Origin: a virus
IMG/VR virus record: IMGVR_UViG_3300044991_000938
Location: 1 to 23,310 of that record
Reading direction: 5' to 3' (one strand)
Length of the DNA stretch: 23,310 nt
How positions within the stretch are numbered: position 1 is the first letter of the stretch; each line of letters starts with the position of its first letter. Shown here in pieces: positions 2,436-14,300 of this stretch. The notes under the pieces were generated by a model. It searched no databases, had not been told where the DNA came from, and saw nothing but the letters and a program-made list of their open reading frames with translations. The translations under genes and the position numbers were made by a program.

Positions 2436-4832
2436 TTACGCGGCCATGTGACCGACTTCGACGCCCATTATGCCACTAATCTTCTCTTTCCACGACTTCA
2501 GCGTGGAATTCTGAGGGGCGTCGACTTTAGGTGGTGCCTTGCTGGTAATCATGTTGCAGTTCCACGCCAGTGAGTCGACGATGTCGTCATGGTCACCTGC
2601 CGGAAACCTCAAAAACTCGCGCTTGAGCGGTATCAGCCAGTCAGCCTCCTGAAACACCACACGCCCCTGCTGCATGCGCCCCTGGAGCGCCCTGGCCCTG
2701 ACCAGCTTGTCAGTCAGCGGCTTCAGCACCTCATACGGCGGAAACACCCCACGTTCTGCACACCTCTGCTTGAACACCGGCTCTATGGCGCGCCAAATCT
2801 GACCATCCTCAACCCCCAGCGCCACAGGTGTATCCGGGTAGAGCGTCCACTTCTGGTAAAAATTCAGCATCTCCTCGATGATCGTGAACGTATCGCCCTT
2901 GAACCTCACCACGTCCAGCACGTGCAGGAAGTTATTCTCGTCCTGCAGGATCGTCGAACCTACGGTGTAGTCATTCTGCTGCTTCTCCCCGATGGCGTAG
3001 TCCCACGCCTGATACAAGTGCCGCTTGCGTATCTGAGGCATGCTCGGCTGAGTCCTGAACCACTCAGTCTTGAAATACATGCCCTCGTCCGGCACGGGAT
3101 TCTGCTGGTAGAGAGCCGACCAGATGCGCGGGTGCATGTTGGCCCTGTAGTTCTCCAGCATCTTCGTCGAGTAGCGCTCTGGGTGCAGCGCCGCTCCTGC
3201 CAGCCTGAGCAGCTTGGCACCCTCTGGCACGTCCTCGCCCTGCGTAGTGGGGCGGAACAAGTCACCCTCCTGCGTGAGGTACTCGTCAAACTCAGCCAGC
3301 GCTGGGTACTTAATCACCACAAACTGATCACCACCAGCCACGTCGCGCATCTGCTTCTGCAGCCGCCCTGCCAGATCGTCGTCGTTCCACCACGTATTGT
3401 GACTTACCAACCCGTTGGCGATGAAGTTCTCAGTGCCCTCTACCTGAAGGTCGAAAACTTCTTCAACACCGCACTCCTCAACACTGACTATCGGGTCCAG
3501 AATGAAGTCTGAGGTACGCAGCAGCGGCAAGTGCAACGGACTCAGATCCAAGATGTCCGATTCCTGCATTACAGTTGTTGCAGAGCAGCCCCCTGACTTT
3601 TCCGGTCTCGTGGCAGTGGTCGACAGCAAGTCGCTCTTTCCAATGACCAGGATTTGCCTCCTGCGAGCTCTTTCCACAAATCGCACAAACACCGCCTTGA
3701 GCCTCGACCATGCGCTCGTAGTCCTCGACAGTAATCCCGTAGTTGTACTTGAGCTTGGCGCTTCGTCGCCCATCCTTGTCCAACGCACTCGGTGACCTGT
3801 GGCCGTCAGCCCACTTACGCTTTCCGTAGTGAGACTGACAGAGTCCTCGACAGACTGCTGGCTTGTCACACACATCTTCCGAGCACGTAACGCCTCGCCA
3901 CTTGCCCCACTGTCCTTTAGCGCCACGATTCTCTGTGCTGTAGTCAGACTTCTTGCTCTCATCCATTTCAGGTCACTCCCAGTATCAACCAAGAACGGGT
4001 GCCTCCCGTTCGACCTGACAATTTTACCTGATTTTGTAGTGATTCTCAAGATAGAATCACTACCACTGGCCTTGACGGCGCTTACAGCAGCTGTGGAAAG
4101 TGCTCCCTGCCAGTATGTAGCAACTCTATCTCCAGCCTTGACGCTTTCAAGACGCCGCTCGGTGCCGTCAGCCATCAGCACCGGCGTATCTCCAGTCATG
4201 CACTGGATAATCAGCACACCTCCACCAGGACTAAGCCGGGTGTACGCCGTAGACCAGTACCAATCCCACAGGCCGTCGCGCACGGTAGAGCTGTCCGACT
4301 CCTCCATGTTCTTGATCGGGTCATCAATAATCAGTACGTGCGCACCTTTTCCGGTGATACCACCACCCACACCCGCCGCTGTAAACCCTCCACCCATCGT
4401 GGTGTTCCACGCCTCAACCGACTGGCTGTCAGGATCGAGCTTGGTGTCAGAAAACATCGCCTGATACGCCTTGTCGCGCATCATTTCGCGCACTTTCCGG
4501 CTGAATTTCATCGGCAAGTCGGTGTTGTACCCGCAATTAATCACCTCATGACTCGGATGATGCCCGAGGTGCCATGCCGGAAACCTGATACTCGCCAACT
4601 CAGATTTTCCATGCCGTGGCGGAACGAGCAGCATCAGTCGCGGAGCCTTCTTGTCCGTAACATCCCTCGAAAACTGTTCCAAGCGACGACAAATGTCCTC
4701 GTGCACCCACCCGGCGTCATAACTCGGATGAAATTTTTTGGTAAAAAACAGCAAATTGCGGCGTGCGAGTACCCGCGCAGCTAATTCTTTGTTGAACGCT
4801 ACCTCTTTCGAGCTACTCCTGGGTGCCGTCAC
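2436..4832 (-). CDS. terL: Terminase large subunit containing an intein
   Basis: The motor ATPase and nuclease that pumps and cuts phage DNA. The precursor is 798 residues; removing the intein (residues 211-479) leaves about 529, a normal TerL size. ATPase: Walker A-like PPRHGKS at 71-77, Walker B HVLIIDD at 165-171, and motif III LIIQ/T interrupted by the intein after Q210. Nuclease (RNase H fold): AWDYA with D611, GVED with E675/D676, and DHDDIVD with D749-D753. The start is GTG at 4832, placed by GAGG six bases upstream; it overlaps the terS end by 20 bases. The frame is open across the whole intein, so both halves are translated as one chain and splicing is needed for a working motor. An HNH gene is nested out of frame within the intein. 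Confidence 0.95.
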   Translation of the reverse strand: MTAPRSSSKEVAFNKELAARVLARRNLLFFTKKFHPSYDAGWVHEDICRRLEQFSRDVTDKKAPRLMLLVPPRHGKSELASIRFPAWHLGHHPSHEVINCGYNTDLPMKFSRKVREMMRDKAYQAMFSDTKLDPDSQSVEAWNTTMGGGFTAAGVGGGITGKGAHVLIIDDPIKNMEESDSSTVRDGLWDWYWSTAYTRLSPGGGVLIIQCMTGDTPVLMADGTERRLESVKAGDRVATYWQGALSTAAVSAVKASGSDSILRITTKSGKIVRSNGRHPFLVDTGSDLKWMRARSLTTAQRIVALKDSGASGEALRARKMCVTSQQSVEDSVSLTTESVSGLTATGHRVRWTRMGDEAPSSSTTTGLLSRTTSAWSRLKAVFVRFVERARRRQILVIGKSDLLSTTATRPEKSGGCSATTVMQESDILDLSPLHLPLLRTSDFILDPIVSVEECGVEEVFDLQVEGTENFIANGLVSHNTWWNDDDLAGRLQKQMRDVAGGDQFVVIKYPALAEFDEYLTQEGDLFRPTTQGEDVPEGAKLLRLAGAALHPERYSTKMLENYRANMHPRIWSALYQQNPVPDEGMYFKTEWFRTQPSMPQIRKRHLYQAWDYAIGEKQQNDYTVGSTILQDENNFLHVLDVVRFKGDTFTIIEEMLNFYQKWTLYPDTPVALGVEDGQIWRAIEPVFKQRCAERGVFPPYEVLKPLTDKLVRARALQGRMQQGRVVFQEADWLIPLKREFLRFPAGDHDDIVDSLAWNCNMITSKAPPKVDAPQNSTLKSWKEKISGIMGVEVGHMAA
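3396..4202 (-). mobile_element. Intein in TerL motif III
   Basis: A protein-splicing element of 269 residues. Block A is CMTGDTPVLMADG with the nucleophile Cys at precursor residue 211. Block B is NGRHPFLVD with His278. Blocks F and G are EVFDLQVEGTENFIANG and VSHN, with penultimate His478 and terminal Asn479. The +1 extein residue is Thr480. All residues needed for class 1 splicing are present. Joining the flanks gives LIIQ-TWWNDDDLAGR, the uninterrupted conserved terminase motif, which fixes the boundaries exactly. There is no DOD (LAGLIDADG) endonuclease in frame. Instead residues of roughly 290-452 are a serine/arginine-rich stretch that is the alternate-frame reading of a nested HNH gene. 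Confidence 0.95.
3478..3966 (-). CDS. HNH (endonuclease VII-type) gene nested out of frame inside the terL intein
   Basis: A 162-residue HNH endonuclease of the recombination endonuclease VII type. The N-terminal Cys cluster is C28, C33, C39, C43 with SHYGKRK. The nuclease core is CAIC (C94, C97), DHCH at 116-119, GKVRGLLCNNCN with C129 and C132. Endonuclease VII-family proteins in phages commonly act as homing endonucleases. The frame differs from terL by two bases, and both frames stay open for 489 bases. The ATG at 3966 has GGGAG nine bases upstream, and a TGA in its own frame nine bases upstream, so it begins independently and is not an in-frame fusion. It stops before the C-terminal splicing blocks. 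Likely role: mobility of the intein (inference). Confidence 0.9.
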   Translation of the reverse strand: MDESKKSDYSTENRGAKGQWGKWRGVTCSEDVCDKPAVCRGLCQSHYGKRKWADGHRSPSALDKDGRRSAKLKYNYGITVEDYERMVEAQGGVCAICGKSSQEANPGHWKERLAVDHCHETGKVRGLLCNNCNAGIGHLGSESVALAAAAYLRLHSGPDSQC

Positions 4833-5564: not shown

Positions 5565-5765
5565 ATGGCCATTATTCGTCACCACGCACGTAATAACACC
5601 ACCACTGCCACCACGCTCAACATCGTTGAGCGTGCCACTGCAACCACGATCTCCAAGGTCCTGGAGCAAGCGTCCTTTGTTAAGGGCGTCTGGGACGTTA
5701 GGGACCAAACCGGTCAGGCGGCATACGACCGCGTGACCGCTTACCTGCTCGCGAAGAGCAAGTAA
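5565..5765 (+). CDS. Small orphan protein, MAIIRH paralogue 1
   Basis: A 66-residue protein of unknown function and the first gene of the plus-strand block. ATG at 5565 follows AGGAGATT (5553-5560). It begins MAIIRHHARN, followed by a Thr/Ala-rich linker, then IVERATATTISKVLE and a C-terminal GQAAYDRVTAYLLAKSK helix. The gene at 7581-7829 starts MAIIRHARN and has the same order of IIER, V-x-D and YD-x-V-x-x-Y-x-x-x-K elements, so the two are paralogues. No enzyme motif or membrane segment is visible. Being first in the block and followed by a strong hairpin array suggests a highly expressed, separately controlled transcript (inference). Confidence 0.8.
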   Translation: MAIIRHHARNNTTTATTLNIVERATATTISKVLEQASFVKGVWDVRDQTGQAAYDRVTAYLLAKSK

Positions 5766-7831: not shown

Positions 7832-8767
7832 ATGTCAGCAGATAACATTGACGGCAACATCCTCGAACTGACCAACTTCCGCAAGGAAAAAGACCGCATC
7901 ATCAAGGCCGACAACCCGCAAGGGTTGATCAAAGGCATTGACCAGATCACCTACCGGTTCTGTCTGAACCGGCTGATCAGCGCCATGGCCTTCACATGCG
8001 TGGGCTACGGCAATAGCCAGCTCACGAAGAAGACCACGCTGGACGAAAACAAGGCCGAGATCGACTTCATCGACGGCCAGAACGTCAGCGACATTGAAGA
8101 CTACCTCAATGACAAGTCTGACTATCATGACCACACCGAAGAAGTGGGATTCAGAGAACCTGAGAAAATCAAGCCCAGCGTATTCGGCGGATACAAGCAC
8201 CTGATACGACTGGCCATCGCAGATAAGGCGATGTACGAGCGGTACCCGTTCACCGGTATCAACGGAGCTATCAAGTTCCTGCTTGAGTCAGCTCCGATGA
8301 ACAACACCAATGAGCTTATCGAAGCTACTGATGAGTTCCTCACCACCGAGGAAGAGCAGTACGGCCTCGACACAGAGCTCATCTCGGAGCTGGAGAAAGC
8401 GGTGGTCGTTCAGGACAAGGAGCGCAGCACGAACACACTGCGTGAAAACGCTCCGAAGATCATGGAGATGGTCCAACAAGGTGACAAATGCACCTTCGAG
8501 GATGCGTGGCATGATCTACCTACGCTCAACCAGTTCAAGATCCTCAAGGACTTGATGCTGGTGATCACCAAGAGCATCGCTCGCAAAAAGCTGTATGCGA
8601 AACGGAACATCCGCAACGCTGCAGACAACAGCGGAGCGGAACACGAGGCGCTGTGCCAAGCGTACGCACGCCTCAAGGAGCAGGTTGACGAGATGCGCAC
8701 CAGTTACGGCAAAGCCGTAATCGACGAAGCATTCGACAACTTCGTCCTGGCCGATAAGTACGCCTGA
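7832..8767 (+). CDS. Orphan 311-residue phage protein
   Basis: The largest gene of this early block; no family recognised. It is mostly helical and charged. Visible segments are a basic N-terminus (NFRKEKDRIIKADNP), QITYRFCLNRLISAMAFTC around residues 39-57, a helix-rich middle with EATDEFLTTEEEQYGLDTELISELEKAV (as consecutive helices), and a C-terminal helical region ending FDNFVLADKYA. No Walker, HNH or Cys motif is seen. ATG is preceded by GAAGGAGG within the previous gene, and two bases separate them from its stop. Its size and conserved-looking composition argue it is real. Confidence 0.8.
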   Translation: MSADNIDGNILELTNFRKEKDRIIKADNPQGLIKGIDQITYRFCLNRLISAMAFTCVGYGNSQLTKKTTLDENKAEIDFIDGQNVSDIEDYLNDKSDYHDHTEEVGFREPEKIKPSVFGGYKHLIRLAIADKAMYERYPFTGINGAIKFLLESAPMNNTNELIEATDEFLTTEEEQYGLDTELISELEKAVVVQDKERSTNTLRENAPKIMEMVQQGDKCTFEDAWHDLPTLNQFKILKDLMLVITKSIARKKLYAKRNIRNAADNSGAEHEALCQAYARLKEQVDEMRTSYGKAVIDEAFDNFVLADKYA

Positions 8768-8769
8768 TC

Positions 8770-9042
8770 ATGGACATGCTCGTCGGACTGGCGGGCATGG
8801 GCCTGATCGCTGCAGTAGGTCTGCTCATCCTGATGGGCAACCTACCGTACCGACTGCGCATATGGCTGCTAAACCATATGCTCATCCCCGACACGCTCAT
8901 GACAGTGCTGCTATTCTGGATGCACTGGGGCACATTCTCAGGGATGGCCATGGCCACAATGGGCGCACTCGGAGCATCTGCCATGCTCAGAGTGATGAAG
9001 CTCTGGTATCAAACAAAGGAGCAAGTTGAGTGGGCTGACTAA
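8770..9042 (+). CDS. Membrane protein, two helices
   Basis: A 90-residue protein. The first membrane segment is around residues 3-24 (LVGLAGMGLIAAVGLLILMG); a second hydrophobic stretch covers about 42-73 (LMTVLLFWMHWG through ALGASAML) and could be one long or two short helices. It ends with a charged tail (KLWYQTKEQVEWAD). It follows the previous stop by two bases. Small membrane proteins in phage early operons include holins and superinfection factors; location away from any visible lysin argues against a holin call. Confidence 0.65.
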   Translation: MDMLVGLAGMGLIAAVGLLILMGNLPYRLRIWLLNHMLIPDTLMTVLLFWMHWGTFSGMAMATMGALGASAMLRVMKLWYQTKEQVEWAD

Positions 9043-9054
9043 TCTCCTCTCTCC

Positions 9055-9080
9055 GGCCTCAGAGAAGTCCACACGAGGCC
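9055..9080 (+). other. Hairpin after the early small-gene block
   Basis: GGCCTC/GAGGCC with a 14-base loop, 13 bases after the last stop. No T-run directly follows, so terminator function is uncertain. Confidence 0.35.
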
Positions 9081-9098
9081 ACCAATAATGTATGACTA

Positions 9099-9253
9099 TA
9101 GTACTTATGTACTAGATATGCGCACATCTTCATAGTACATCTGTACTATAAAATAGGTTAAATAAAAAAAGTTGAAAATCCAAATCAATTTTGAGAAAGC
9201 GTAAATGTGTAAACCTAGTACATATGTACTAATTTTATAGTACGTATGTACTA
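9099..9253. promoter_or_regulatory. Four palindromes TAGTAC-N4-GTACTA
   Basis: Sixteen-base palindromes at 9099-9114 (centre TTAT), 9133-9148 (ATCT), 9216-9231 (ATAT) and 9238-9253 (GTAT). All four have perfect TAGTAC and GTACTA arms. Start-to-start spacing is 34, 83 and 22 bp. They lie in AT-rich DNA upstream of the replication gene, as expected for repressor operators or initiator-binding sites. No other copies with both arms were noticed elsewhere in the window; a partial echo is AGTACTGTG/CACAGTACT at 5793-5820. Confidence 0.8.
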
Positions 9254-9535
9254 CTCAATCGTTGAACAACTGCTTAAAAAATAGGCAAAAACACTTCAAA
9301 AACAGCGTTTCGGTTTTAAATTAAGTTCAAAATAAGTGTAAATTGTGTAAATCTGTAAAGATTCATGGAAAAATCTCCACACTGACACTTAAAAACACCA
9401 TTCTGTGGACGTTTCTGAAAACCCACCAACCCAGACCCTACCTAGGTTCCCACCCTCTCTTTACACTTTTACACTATTTTCTTATTTATACTAATAAGTA
9501 GAAGTATATATATACATAAAACATATACATGTCAT
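9201..9535. other. Candidate replication origin: AT-rich region with GTGTAAA repeats
   Basis: This is the rest of the non-coding stretch 9043-9631. GTGTAAA occurs at 9207-9213, 9336-9342 and 9345-9351, with a near copy CTGTAAA at 9353-9359, and in inverse orientation (TTTACAC) at 9460-9466 and 9468-9474. An AT tract (ATATATATACATAAAACATA) follows at about 9506-9525. Iteron-like repeats plus an AT-rich unwinding segment beside the primase-helicase gene are typical of phage and plasmid origins. Function is inferred. Confidence 0.45.
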
Positions 9536-9631
9536 TCCTAGCCTGGAATAGGCCCCCCCGAAAAAGCGTATTTCTGTAATAACCGCTCTGTGCTACCCTC
9601 CCTCCCCTCAAAAAACTACGGGGTTACACGT

Positions 9632-12013
9632 ATGGACATGTACTTCCTCGGCGCTGATATGCGCCTCACAAAGCGCTTCACCATCTCAAGTAAGACCAGC
9701 TACCCCAACGCGTATGAGTTCACGAGCTACCTCGAGAAGATCAACACCATTGAAGATCTGTACACACAGATCAACGCACATGCAGTTCAAGGCCATTGCC
9801 TGCTCAAGGGTGTATTGACCAGACCGCTAGTTAAGGAATCACGTGCAGGAACCACAACGCCTCTGACAACCACTAGCTGGGCTTGCCTCGACTTTGATGG
9901 GTTACCCAAGGGTGTATCAATTGAGTCGATTCTAGACATGTTTCCTGGCTTTGAAGGGGTGGATTACGTCATTCAGTACTCAGCCTCTCACGGCATAATG
10001 GGCCAGAGCGACAAAACCAAGGCGCATGTCTTCATCTTATTCGACTCGCCAGTGAATCCGGCGCTGTTGAAGCACATGTTTGCTCAACTGAACGTGCAGA
10101 TCGAAGCATTGAAGCTGAGCTTGGGCCTGACCAAGAGCCAGATGGCGCTTAGTTACATCCTCGACCCAACCGTAGCGCAGAATGACAAGCTGATTTACAT
10201 CGCACCTCCTGAGTGCACACCACCCTCACTTGACACACTCTCCACCAGAATCCTGCTGGTCAAGCGCACCAAGCGCTACGCGACATTCTTCGTAACAGCT
10301 CTACTCCCACCTGAAGCGCTCAAGACACAGGTAGAGCAGCGTATCAACGAGCTGCGTGTGGCCTCAGGCCTTGAGACACGCAAGAAGTTTGTGTATCGCA
10401 CCGATACAGAATCTGGTGTTCAGTTCATGTCCAAGCCAGACAAAGGCATCGTCACTGATACCAAGCTCGAGCGAGGATTCGCATACCTCAACCTCAACGG
10501 AGGTGATTCCTTCGCGTATTACCACCCTGAAGACAACCCGACCTACCTCTACAACTTTAAGTCAGAGCCGGTGTACAAGCTCAGCGAGATAGCACCTGAG
10601 TATTTCGTCATAGCCAAGGCGCACGCGGCTGCTCTCAAGAAGGCGGCGATTCAATCGCCCTTGACGGCGATAGCAGGTGCCACTCAGAATCTGTACTTCG
10701 TGTTTCGTGACATGAAGTCATCTCTCTACTACAACGGCATTTACAACCAAGCTACTCAGACATGGAACCTCGCACGTGCCACAAGCGAGAAAATGCTGGC
10801 TGATTTCATGACTCAGTATGGACAACCAGCCCCGGACATCATCCCAATCTGGGACCTCGTGTTTGACCCTCAGCTAGCCCCTCTGGACGTCGCACAGCGC
10901 AAGATCAACCTCTACACTGAGTCACCCTACATGAAAGCGGCTAAGGCGCGTAAAACACCTCCTGGTGACTTCTCTACGATCAAGAAAGTCATCTGGTCAG
11001 TAGTAGGATCTGATCAGGTTACATACGAGCACTTCATCAACTGGCTAGCGTTCATCATCCAGAAAAAGAACCGCACTCAGACAGCGTGGCTCTTCCAAGG
11101 TGTGCACGGCACAGGCAAGGGCACACTGATCCACCGCATACTGCGGCCACTGCTAGGTGAGCAGAACACAGCGTACCTTGAGATGAATCAGTTGGAAGAC
11201 CGCTTCAACGAACGCATGGAGAACTCACTGTTGACATTCATCGACGAGATGAGCATCGAAGACCTCGAGCATGGTTCAAAAATACTAGCCACGCTCAAGA
11301 CAATGATCACTGAGCCCATGCTCACCATCCGAAAAATGCGCGCAGCTGGGTACTTGGTGAATAACTTCAACAACTACGTACTGTGCTCCAACAGCAACAA
11401 GCAGGTCACCATCGAGGGCACTGACAGGCGGTACAACGTAGGTCTTTTCCAGACCACCCCTATCAAGCTGTCTGACGAGGAGGTAGACGAGCTGATCCCA
11501 GCTGAGCTTGAGAGCTTCACTCAATTTCTTCAGCAGTACCCACTCAACGAGGCCAAAGCGCGCCGCGTGCTGGAAAATGCGGCACGTCGCGACATCAAGG
11601 ACGCTTCGCTGACATCTATCGACAAGATCAGCAAGAACATCATTGATGGTGATCTGGAGGAGCTGCACTCTTACATCGTGGACATCAACCAAGCGCAGGG
11701 CAAGACGATGATCACAGCTCAGATGTACAAGGAGCTGATGCACAACATCCTACTGAATGAATGGGCTTCACTCAGCAGAGAAGAGCTGCAGCTGATCTTT
11801 GCACACACAGTGGGTGACATACCCACCAGCCCGGCCAAGTTCTCGAGGTTCTGCAACCACCACAACATCAAAATCGTACCGGTGAACAGAGGATCTGCCA
11901 CATTCCGTGGCATGAAGATCAACTGGTCAACGGGCACAGACCCTGCTTGGTACGCAGATGCCAAGGCTGAGATCATAGCGTCCAAGCAGCCCAAACTCAG
12001 GAGCGTAGCGTGA
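9632..12013 (+). CDS. Primase-helicase, AEP plus D5-like SF3 helicase
   Basis: A replication initiator-type fusion that can synthesise primers and unwind DNA. Numbered from a possible GTG at 9590 (subtract 14 for the preferred ATG at 9632): an archaeo-eukaryotic primase-like N-domain has ACLDFDG (DFD 101-103) and SASH 131-134 with KAHVFILFD 144-152. The C-terminal SF3 ATPase (DUF5906/D5-like) has Walker A GVHGTGKGT at 504-512, Walker B LTFIDEM at 548-554, sensor LCSNS at 598-602 and arginine-finger region TDRRYN at 611-616. It is 793 residues from 9632. Neither start has a strong ribosome site; GGGG lies nine or so bases before 9632, and nothing before 9590. It lies immediately downstream of the candidate origin. 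Confidence 0.9.
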   Translation: MDMYFLGADMRLTKRFTISSKTSYPNAYEFTSYLEKINTIEDLYTQINAHAVQGHCLLKGVLTRPLVKESRAGTTTPLTTTSWACLDFDGLPKGVSIESILDMFPGFEGVDYVIQYSASHGIMGQSDKTKAHVFILFDSPVNPALLKHMFAQLNVQIEALKLSLGLTKSQMALSYILDPTVAQNDKLIYIAPPECTPPSLDTLSTRILLVKRTKRYATFFVTALLPPEALKTQVEQRINELRVASGLETRKKFVYRTDTESGVQFMSKPDKGIVTDTKLERGFAYLNLNGGDSFAYYHPEDNPTYLYNFKSEPVYKLSEIAPEYFVIAKAHAAALKKAAIQSPLTAIAGATQNLYFVFRDMKSSLYYNGIYNQATQTWNLARATSEKMLADFMTQYGQPAPDIIPIWDLVFDPQLAPLDVAQRKINLYTESPYMKAAKARKTPPGDFSTIKKVIWSVVGSDQVTYEHFINWLAFIIQKKNRTQTAWLFQGVHGTGKGTLIHRILRPLLGEQNTAYLEMNQLEDRFNERMENSLLTFIDEMSIEDLEHGSKILATLKTMITEPMLTIRKMRAAGYLVNNFNNYVLCSNSNKQVTIEGTDRRYNVGLFQTTPIKLSDEEVDELIPAELESFTQFLQQYPLNEAKARRVLENAARRDIKDASLTSIDKISKNIIDGDLEELHSYIVDINQAQGKTMITAQMYKELMHNILLNEWASLSREELQLIFAHTVGDIPTSPAKFSRFCNHHNIKIVPVNRGSATFRGMKINWSTGTDPAWYADAKAEIIASKQPKLRSVA

Positions 12014-12014
12014 A

Positions 12015-12191
12015 ATGAAGGCTCACTTAGTAACGTGTGAAATTTGTGGTAAGCCCAAAGGCCGCTGGTTTGACCATACTGAGTGCTCAAAAATTAAGCA
12101 GGTACAGCACGCTAACGACAAGCGGGCGAAATCAGATAACAAGTACACAGAGCAGCACATCAGTGGCCTGCTAAAAAACATAGGAGAGTGA
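12015..12191 (+). CDS. Small zinc-finger protein
   Basis: A 58-residue protein, MKAHLVTCEICGKPKGRWFD onward. C8-x2-C11-x9-H21-x2-C24 forms a plausible single zinc site, followed by a basic helical tail (KIKQVQHANDKRAKSDNK). It starts one base after the replication gene's stop, with AGGAG in the end of that gene. Likely nucleic-acid binding; no named family. Confidence 0.65.
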   Translation: MKAHLVTCEICGKPKGRWFDHTECSKIKQVQHANDKRAKSDNKYTEQHISGLLKNIGE

Positions 12192-12192
12192 A

Positions 12193-12363
12193 ATGACTGA
12201 TTACAAACACTTGTACCAAGGATTCTTCGACGAGCTCAAGGACGAGGGTCTATCAGACACTGACGCATCAGAAGCAGCTCACGAGCGCTTCACTGAAGCC
12301 ATCGCAGATCAGATTGACACAGCGTGGCAGCAGTACAAGGACTCTAAATGGGAGAACGGGTGA
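12193..12363 (+). CDS. Small acidic helical protein
   Basis: A 56-residue protein, MTDYKHLYQGFFDELKDEG to QYKDSKWENG. Acidic, predicted helical throughout, no motif. ATG follows TAGGAGAGTGAA, and the stop overlaps the next start in TGATG. It is part of a closely coupled series from 12015 to 13263. Confidence 0.6.
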   Translation: MTDYKHLYQGFFDELKDEGLSDTDASEAAHERFTEAIADQIDTAWQQYKDSKWENG

Positions 12364-12511: not shown

Positions 12512-12715
12512 ATGATTGACGAGCTGGAGAGGCTGCAGCTAGAGATTGAGGAGCGCACTCGCGTCTCACGGGAAATCATCAGCTACCTGCGCGGAATGCA
12601 GGCCAGGGTAGACACTCTGAGTCTGAAGAACGACCACCTGAGCGCAGAAAACAGTGCCATGCGGGCCATCCTCACGCGTGAGTTCAGTAACTGGAAAGCA
12701 AAGGTGTACCAATGA
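12512..12715 (+). CDS. Small coiled-coil protein
   Basis: A 67-residue protein made almost entirely of heptad-pattern helix (MIDELERLQLEIEERTR, then VDTLSLKNDHLSAENSAM). GGAGG inside the end of the previous gene supports ATG 12512. It overlaps the next gene by four bases (ATGA). Such proteins are usually dimeric; partner unknown. Confidence 0.65.
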   Translation: MIDELERLQLEIEERTRVSREIISYLRGMQARVDTLSLKNDHLSAENSAMRAILTREFSNWKAKVYQ

Positions 12716-12894
12716 GTAACGAATTAGCGGCCATATTGATCGGCATACTTTTGGCGGTAGCGTTATTTGGGGTAGTGCAATTCCTTCAAGACAATCGTAA
12801 CTTCCAGTCAGAAATTGTCGAAGTCTGCGCGAAGCGTGGGTTCGTCCAAGATGACAACACCCGTGTCCTCTGCCAAGTGGAGGCAAAGAAATGA
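12712..12894 (+). CDS. Small membrane-anchored protein
   Basis: A 60-residue protein with an N-terminal helix at about 5-25 (LAAILIGILLAVALFGVVQF) and a soluble tail with two Cys (VEVCAKRG, VLCQVEAKK). An N-terminal anchor followed by a short periplasmic-type domain recalls i-spanins, but the length and the absence of a lysin nearby make that weak. It overlaps both neighbours by four bases. Confidence 0.6.
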   Translation: MSNELAAILIGILLAVALFGVVQFLQDNRNFQSEIVEVCAKRGFVQDDNTRVLCQVEAKK

Positions 12895-12932
12895 CTGAAA
12901 TCTTTTGGCTCGAAAAATGGGCGAAGCGCTAA
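12891..12932 (+). CDS. Possible 13-residue peptide
   Basis: Reads MTEIFWLEKWAKR. ATG overlaps the previous stop (ATGA) and GGAGG lies eight bases upstream, so ribosomes would initiate here. It could be a coupling peptide for the gene at 12935 or a degraded gene. Too short to judge by composition. Confidence 0.3.
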   Translation: MTEIFWLEKWAKR

Positions 12933-13337: not shown

Positions 13338-13535
13338 ATGGAAGATGAATGCGATCAACACCGCCTGGATTGGCTGGAAGAAAAAGCCAGCAAGGGGCAA
13401 GTGCAAATTGCCAAATCCCTGCTTGGAACTGGCTATGAAGTGGCAATTCTCAGAAAAGCCGGGGCGACCACTGTTGATGTGTACAGAGGGACGTTACGAG
13501 ATGCAATCGACGGGGCTATGGGTGACTACGCCTAA
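13338..13535 (+). CDS. Small orphan protein upstream of attC-like site A
   Basis: A 65-residue protein, MEDECDQHRLDWLEEKASKG to DAIDGAMGDYA. GGAGATT at 13328-13334 supports the ATG; it is the same extended ribosome site used in the first early block. The stop codon lies inside GCCTAAC, the outer box of the following attC-like structure. The second half (GYEVAILRKAGATTVDVYRG) looks like a beta-hairpin followed by a helix. No family recognised. Confidence 0.65.
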   Translation: MEDECDQHRLDWLEEKASKGQVQIAKSLLGTGYEVAILRKAGATTVDVYRGTLRDAIDGAMGDYA

Positions 13536-13598
13536 CGCCAGCTTCAGCCGAGAGCCGGAGCGCAGCGGAGGCGAATCGGCTGGAAGCGATAGTTATAA
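13530..13598 (-). other. attC-like site A
   Basis: Read on the minus strand it ends in GCGTTAGGC, matching the integron core GTTRRRY (R', 13530-13536). Inner L boxes GCTTCAGCCGA (13541-13551) and TCGGCTGGAAGC (13576-13587) pair perfectly except for one extra G on the plus strand, the extrahelical base typical of the recombinogenic attC bottom strand. The outer boxes pair TAAC (13533-13536) with GTTA (13592-13595), and unpaired four-base spacers separate the boxes. The loop contains AGCGCAGCGGAG. The 5' outer box (TTATAAC on the minus strand) departs from RYYYAAC. Confidence 0.7.
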
Positions 13599-13609
13599 CT
13601 GGATGAGCC

Positions 13610-13846
13610 ATGAACAGACCTGAACGCTTTTACAACGTGAGCCAGACGCAGTTGAGCATTGCGCGCCATTACGGCGGCATAAAGTTCAACGGCGCGGATT
13701 ACCACTACGACGCAGAAAGCGACACGCTGACGCGCATGGATGTCTGGAAAGCGCGCATCGCAAGTTGCAAGGAAGAAGGCGACAAAGCCGCGCGGGCGGA
13801 ACGTGAGAAATGGACGAAGGCGCAAGACAGTTTCGCTAGGTTCTAA
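13610..13846 (+). CDS. Small orphan protein between two attC-like sites
   Basis: A 78-residue protein, MNRPERFYNVSQTQLSIARH onward. It has a compact first half (YGGIKFNGADYHYDAESDTL) and a charged helical end (AARAEREKWTKAQDSF). It resembles small accessory phage and prophage proteins by pattern only. The stop is inside TTCTAACGC, the start of site B. No strong ribosome site is seen before ATG 13610 (GGATGAG only), so expression may rely on read-through translation. Confidence 0.6.
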   Translation: MNRPERFYNVSQTQLSIARHYGGIKFNGADYHYDAESDTLTRMDVWKARIASCKEEGDKAARAEREKWTKAQDSFARF

Positions 13847-13904
13847 CGCTGGCGTAACCGGCGCGTAGCGAAGCGGAGCGTCCGCGTTGACGCAAATGTT
13901 AGGC
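13841..13904 (-). other. attC-like site B
   Basis: Read on the minus strand: R'' GCCTAAC (13898-13904, perfect RYYYAAC), spacer ATTT, L'' GCGTCAAC, loop, L' GTTACGC, spacer CAGC, R' GTTAGAA (13841-13847, one mismatch to GTTRRRY). The L boxes pair apart from one extra base (C on the minus strand, G on the plus), as in canonical attC. The loop has AGCGAAGCGGAG, 11 of 12 bases shared with site A. This is the better of the two sites. It is about 64 bp, within the usual 57-141 bp range of attC. Confidence 0.75.
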
Positions 13905-13925: not shown

Positions 13926-14150
13926 ATGGCAACCGAACTGGCAAGAGGAAAAGCGGCGCAGGCGTGGTGCAAAGAAGCAACATCACACAAGGAGATGGAC
14001 CCGGACTTGGCGGAGGTGTTCGCTGAAATACTTGACGAAATTTGGTCGCAGCCGTGGCTTGGGAATGCCACAACCGCAGAGATGCTAGACGAGCTAAAGA
14101 CGCGGGCAGAGATGGGCGGATACTCGAACTACCGCACCGTTGATGCCTAA
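13926..14150 (+). CDS. Small orphan protein after attC-like site B
   Basis: A 74-residue helical protein, MATELARGKAAQAWCKEATS, then DPDLAEVFAEILDEIWSQPW and an end GGYSNYRTVDA. The pattern AWC-x5-H-x4-DPDLAE...WLGNATT recalls small uncharacterised phage and prophage proteins. AGGAG (13915-13919) is six bases before ATG 13926. The stop again lies in GCCTAACGC, which is identical to the core before site A. Confidence 0.65.
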   Translation: MATELARGKAAQAWCKEATSHKEMDPDLAEVFAEILDEIWSQPWLGNATTAEMLDELKTRAEMGGYSNYRTVDA

Positions 14151-14300
14151 CGCATGAGACACGTCACTTTTGACGCGTAACCACGTATTTCCAATGTTTT
14201 ACAGCTTGATCGGAGAGCGGTATCGCAAGCTGCCGAAGGCCCGTAAAGGGCGGCACTCTCTTTCGAAGTATCGTAACCGGCACTAATTCAAGGAGATGGA
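14145..14300. other. Solitary attC core and structured non-coding stretch
   Basis: GCCTAACGC (14145-14153) repeats the core of site A, but no matching partner box (GTTRRRY on the plus strand with paired L boxes) was found within about 150 bases, so this is at most a half site. The rest holds several stems: ACGTCA/TGACG at 14161-14175, CAGCTTG/CAAGCTG at 14202-14232, GCCC-GTAAA-GGGC at 14239-14251 and GAGAG/CTCTC at 14213-14260. I could not fold it as a tRNA. Confidence 0.4.

Follow-up and report, generated by a model that had tools for sequence, protein, structure and literature searches.

A phage integron array without a local integrase, with cassette genes antisense to its attC sites

Integrons have been studied almost wholly as bacterial devices that shuffle resistance and adaptation genes. 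Inverted-integrase integrons of the Treponema denticola type have a flipped integrase gene, but their cassette genes keep the sense direction relative to attC. Cassettes can also enter sites other than attI or attC, such as attG. These attG insertion sites were named in PMC12901181. Phage attC arrays are already known from Qi et al. 2023 (PMC9892861), which described 17 clusters of attC sites lacking an integrase (CALINs), among them those of the virulent phages Tetrasphaera TJE1, Pseudoalteromonas PH101, and Polaribacter P12002L, and in which five of six phage attC sites were recombined by IntI1. The arrays analyzed here resemble those CALINs in being integrase-less attC arrays in phage genomes and in having methyltransferase cassettes. 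However, the TJE1 genes are sense to attC while those of the present locus are antisense, and neither an antisense class nor natural crossover-bounded variation is part of that study; both are described here. An earlier account of an antisense, phage-specific class was not found in the open-access papers searched, the coverage of which is incomplete.

The window, that is, the whole stretch of DNA analyzed, is an entire IMG/VR virus record of 23,310 bp, classed as linear. It is a fragment of a podovirus-like phage that carries an integrase-less attC array. The locus is very probably a small phage integron array with IntI supplied in trans, in which two attC sites are complete, a third R box is accompanied by a candidate attI-like element, and two or three cassettes each hold one gene antisense to attC (Table 1).

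Table 1. Features of the phage record and of its attC array. Positions are those of the window; rc, reverse complement.
Feature	Position	Strand	Evidence and details
Portal protein (phage hallmark)	2..2089	-	Pfam P22_portal, E 7.5e-98
Large terminase with intein (phage hallmark)	2436..4832	-	Pfam Terminase_6N, Intein_splicing; phrog_38
Primase/helicase-like protein (DUF5906)	9590..12013	+	Pfam and PHROG profile matches
ORF1, 64 aa, distal array end	13341..13535	+	TAA ends at site A crossover; no Pfam/PHROG match
attC site A	13530..13598	-	covariance model R1, 31.0 bits, E 6.1e-6, full length 1-67; own detector
Boxes of site A			R' GTTAGGC, rc 13530-13536; R'' TTATAAC, rc 13592-13598; predicted crossover 13535/13536
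Cassette gene 2, 78 aa	13610..13846	+	TAA ends at site B crossover
attC site B	13841..13904	-	covariance model R1, 32.9 bits, E 2e-6, full length
Boxes of site B			R' GTTAGAA, rc 13841-13847; R'' GCCTAAC, rc 13898-13904; predicted crossover 13846/13847
Cassette gene 3, 74 aa	13926..14150	+	preceded by AAGGAGATGG; TAA ends at third crossover
Third R box, GTTAGGC on minus	14145..14151	-	sequence; crossover expected 14150/14151; starts first cassette in attC orientation
Conserved element directly after third R box, candidate attI-like	14151..14202	-	position and conservation

Misbinning of a bacterial integron fragment, or its chimeric joining to a phage contig, is extremely unlikely as the source of this array. 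Some IMG/VR contigs do carry ordinary chromosomal integrons (L208, for example, with intI and sense genes), but here the terminase, portal, and primase genes lie on the same contig as the array, and the array junctions recur in four records of this phage at 99.2-100% identity. In addition, the cassette-2 protein was not found in 369 sampled bacterial genomes, in a search that had no positive control. Several IMG/VR contigs were 99-100% identical to parts of the window, while a nucleotide search found no close relative among deposited annotated phages, the distant matches being mostly to thymidylate synthase. A thymidylate synthase gene is also present in the window, as indicated by profile matches. 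The large terminase gene (2436-4832) is interrupted by an intein, with the Intein_splicing domain at residues 250-479, and Rfam gave no match for the window. In two relatives, L002 and L004, about 233 bp at about 12697-12928, containing a small gene (ORF 12712-12894), are replaced by about 10 bp. This difference was set aside, its position not being at an attC site.

The attC sites were identified with a covariance model (R1) built for this study rather than taken from IntegronFinder. Eighty bacterial integron loci were fetched with an IntI1 query, 18 attC sites were picked from them by box and stem rules, and these were aligned and their structure set by hand. When all 23 kb of the window were searched on both strands with filters off, the two best matches were exactly sites A and B, on the minus strand only. 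No further attC was found in the whole window below E 0.4, and the next best match scored 11.5 bits. A separate box-and-stem detector also returned only sites A and B from the window, and gave no matches in 550 kb of shuffled sequence. All nine L-stem pairs of each site are Watson-Crick pairs, and the one extrahelical base of each lies on the L'' side, 16 positions in (model column 16), as in the training sites, with the spacers fixed. A 23-nt stretch of the site A loop recurs exactly in both L060 and L072, which are bacterial integron loci, and in the former the match falls inside a candidate attC. These results confirmed that sites A and B are genuine integron attC sites.

The first-pass annotation of this DNA had proposed two attC sites at the same coordinates and a covariance-model search as the means of checking them, and both sites passed that check with the model built here from bacterial attC. 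Its observation of a single extrahelical base on the same strand was confirmed as a minus-strand C in both sites (opposite +13583 in A and +13889 in B), and the central loops do have 11 of 12 bases in common (AGCGCAGCGGAG and AGCGAAGCGGAG). One small gene per interval at a spacing of about 310 bp also agreed with the measured distances: sites A and B are 311 bp apart, and the third R box lies 304 bp beyond the R box of site B. Both sites have intact AAC/GTT cores, within the RYYYAAC/GTTRRRY pattern, and R'' of B (GCCTAAC) and R' of A (GTTAGGC) are canonical, but R' of B (GTTAGAA) and, as a divergent box, R'' of A (TTATAAC) depart from the consensus at outer bases. The designation of the array as a CALIN was upheld: at least two attC sites lie no more than a few kb apart with no intI in their vicinity, the profile search of the 23.3-kb record for an integrase having given no match to PF00589 or TIGR02249. 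A complete integron consists of intI, attI, and an attC array; as this record, itself a fragment, has no integrase, the array is rightly called a CALIN.

It is scarcely credible that the sites are chance palindromes or ordinary rho-independent terminators. Their single-strand folding energies are unremarkable (z -0.67 to 0.13), but what defines an attC site is the sequence and spacing of its boxes, not its stability. E values of 2e-6 and 6e-6, set against the absence of matches in shuffled sequence, argue against this explanation, and the covariance matches together with the divergence of three related contigs at an attC crossover (L008-L010, below) refute it. Elsewhere in the window, at 5615-5631, there is a short perfect palindrome, GCTCAACA-N-TGTTGAGC, which is like two facing R boxes and scores 11.5 bits in the attC model.

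The orientation of the model is the direction of the cassette gene in bacteria. The first-pass annotation had implied that the attC sites point with the genes, on the plus strand, but the order of the R and L boxes, the extrahelical base, the strand of the model matches, and the crossovers in relatives all place attC on the minus strand, and the genes, which are on the plus strand, are therefore antisense to it rather than in the same direction as in canonical cassettes. This orientation had been overlooked, as had the element at 14151-14202 and the presence in some such phages of their own intI. In all three genes, the final base of the TAA immediately precedes the predicted crossover AA^C (13535, 13846, and 14150). 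Because each gene is antisense to attC, the repeating unit in the direction of transcription is an attC hairpin, a ribosome-binding site, a gene, its TAA, and the crossover. A canonical CALIN, in which the genes and plus-strand attC sites point the same way, is very unlikely. As in classical cassettes, an RYYYAAC box does stand at the end of the genes, and attC sites are imperfect palindromes, but both the model and the detector put the sites on the minus strand, the geometry of intI loci agrees, and in the cases examined the breakpoints fall at the minus-type R' core and never at the other end.

None of the cassette proteins of the window matched Pfam or PHROG. Homologs of cassette gene 2 were found in L008-L010 (87%) and L011 (82%), in each case within an attC array of another phage. 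These homologs have different attC neighbors, indicating that gene and attC do not always travel together. Another homolog of cassette 2, in L012 (52%), was rejected as a cassette, as it sits away from the attC sites of that contig. Cassette gene 3 has a homolog (61%) in L017, a 57.6-kb phage contig without attC.

At the third R box, no complete attC was scored by the covariance model. The 56 bp at 14147-14202 are 93% identical to positions 7961-8016 of L008, where they occupy the same place in the array. L008 and the window are otherwise unrelated phages which have only this 56-bp element and cassette 2 in common, and no other DNA common to the window and the backbones of L008-L011 was detectable beyond the 56 bp in L008. 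The exact core of the element was found in only five viral contigs, and neither the bacterial integron loci (L018-L097) nor the viral intI loci (L329-L404) contained the element. The variable cassette of L008-L010 adjoins it. Judged by its place in the two arrays, the element at 14151-14202 appears to sit at the attI position and may act as an attI. In comparison with attG, it is conserved in two phages at the array end, which would be nearer to the position of attI.

Relatives of the array showed variation bounded by attC crossovers. L008, L009, and L010 come from three samples and are up to 99.99% identical over 7.7 kb. They match through 7,698 bp, save one or two substitutions, and then split after GGCTAACGC. 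The point of divergence, after GACGGCTAACGC, is a minus-type crossover, and from it each contig enters a different attC. A fourth contig, L102, has the same version as L008. In L011, a 61.9-kb contig, the cassette 2 homolog is flanked on both sides by attC in an array of six sites. Across about 200 viral loci, 18 of the 36 independent breakpoints among the matches listed were no more than 10 bp from an attC crossover, compared with 0.6 expected, and 200,000 simulations gave at most seven. In the cases examined, the breakpoints sat close to the attC-strand R' core, at 1-10 bp, but at least 40 bp away from the alternative core. A 332-bp cassette was 100% identical in L186 and L286, with both of its ends at the core. 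In these alignments, recombination at attC cores in the relatives is shown by the crossover-bounded variation. The cassette variation at the G/TT core that had been anticipated for this locus was thus found in L008-L010 and in the clustering of viral breakpoints, but not in the array of the window itself, which was the same in the four records covering it; no recombination was therefore seen in this phage.

That invariance could also mean that the sites are remnants, once real attC that have become inert and persist between early genes as hairpins or terminators. The R'' sequence of site A, the incomplete third site, and a contig without intI are likewise in keeping with decay. However, both A and B still have intact AAC/GTT cores, their extrahelical base, and all nine pairs of the L stem, and close relatives of the array recombine at the same core, so that loss of function is rather unlikely. 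Beside the array of L008, at 8022-12237, are a small gene (possibly an excisionase), a 378-aa phage-type integrase, and a reverse transcriptase, and repeated coding segments near the latter resemble a diversity-generating retroelement. The 378-aa integrase had no match in NCBIfam, including the integron-integrase model, and was therefore treated as an ordinary phage integrase.

Antisense cassette genes were common in other viral contigs. The covariance model identified at least 300 and at least 264 attC sites in the loci from two pattern scans of viral contigs. From the matches listed, 55 records were tested: 24 had one terminase family, seven had one portal family, and four had an integron integrase over the cut-off. 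Strand calls based on ORF length proved too noisy, and the coding strand of each interval was decided with a codon model instead. Among the matches listed, viral CALIN-type loci had 229 antisense and 30 sense intervals, with 165 of 424 ambiguous in orientation and many of the contigs being fragments. The bacterial controls, which included 40 regions from a class-wide genome sample, had three antisense and 73 sense intervals. Loci chosen by viral integrase alone had 44 antisense and five sense intervals, indicating that the antisense tally is no artifact of the attC pattern, and the published case of Tetrasphaera phage TJE1 was correctly called sense. By these calls, cassette genes antisense to attC are the rule in a large phage group to which the window appears to belong.

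Eighty antisense cassette proteins (alignment A3, loci L107-L403) were compared with protein families, and these matches fixed the coding strand without recourse to the codon model. Fourteen matched N6_N4_Mtase, three RNA ligase, three the Acb2/Tad1 hairpin family, two C5 methylases, two Dam-type methylases, and one a Tad2-like family. Antisense viral cassettes thus often encode DNA methyltransferases, and some encode relatives of counter-defence proteins (Acb2/Tad1, Tad2).

Integron-type integrases were found in 76 viral contigs (L329-L404), and the strand of attC was canonical relative to intI in 109 of 112 viral sites. In a phylogenetic tree, 29 viral integrases formed one fully supported virus-only clade and 20 formed another (93/84 support). 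The viral label required four changes on this tree, compared with 34 in shuffles, with bootstrap support not fully settled and a partial bacterial sample. On this tree, viral intI appear to fall mostly in virus-only clades. The viral loci are like class 1 integrons and the chromosomal integrons of Pseudomonadota in their attC boxes, spacing, extrahelical base, G^TT core, and canonical intI-attC geometry. They differ in that cassettes of the latter were sense in 73 of 76 intervals, whereas viral cassettes are mostly antisense and viral IntI mostly in virus-only clades. As in the Treponema denticola type, intI and the cassette genes have the same direction, but here the intI-attC geometry is canonical and it is the cassette genes that are flipped. 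It is likely that tailed phages have an integron kind of their own, with virus-only intI lineages, arrays that are systematically antisense and join phage operons end to end, and a common stock of genes for DNA modification and counter-defence that passes between unrelated phages whether or not an intI is present locally, the window being an integrase-less member.

In the proposed mechanism, an IntI from outside the contig, provided by the host or by another phage, would act in trans on sites A and B, folding the plus strand, which here is the bottom strand of attC, and cutting at the plus-strand AA^C. Cassettes would enter at the element at 14151-14202, and their genes would be expressed from the phage operon. 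A cassette swap of this kind would keep every reading frame whole and the genes collinear with the phage operon. One possibility for the reversed polarity is that the genes must follow the phage operon while the folded attC strand would have to be the coding strand, exposed during transcription. If phages do have integrons of their own, they would possess a site-specific route for rapidly exchanging counter-defence genes with one another, recombination junctions would be expected immediately behind stop codons, and the phage cassette pool would be open to bacterial integrases, and vice versa. It would also raise the question of why the polarity of genes relative to attC is reversed in viruses.

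Two of the viral loci had further features near the integrase gene. Positions 1-4254 of L250, a temperate phage with its terminase elsewhere on the record, contain in order a methyltransferase, an attC, a small gene, an attC, a Mom-like protein, an integron integrase, a short gene, and a phage-type integrase. In L187, two direct repeats of GTTAGCGGACAGGT (minus strand) at 10735-10830 lie just before the phage integron integrase gene and are possible attI repeats.
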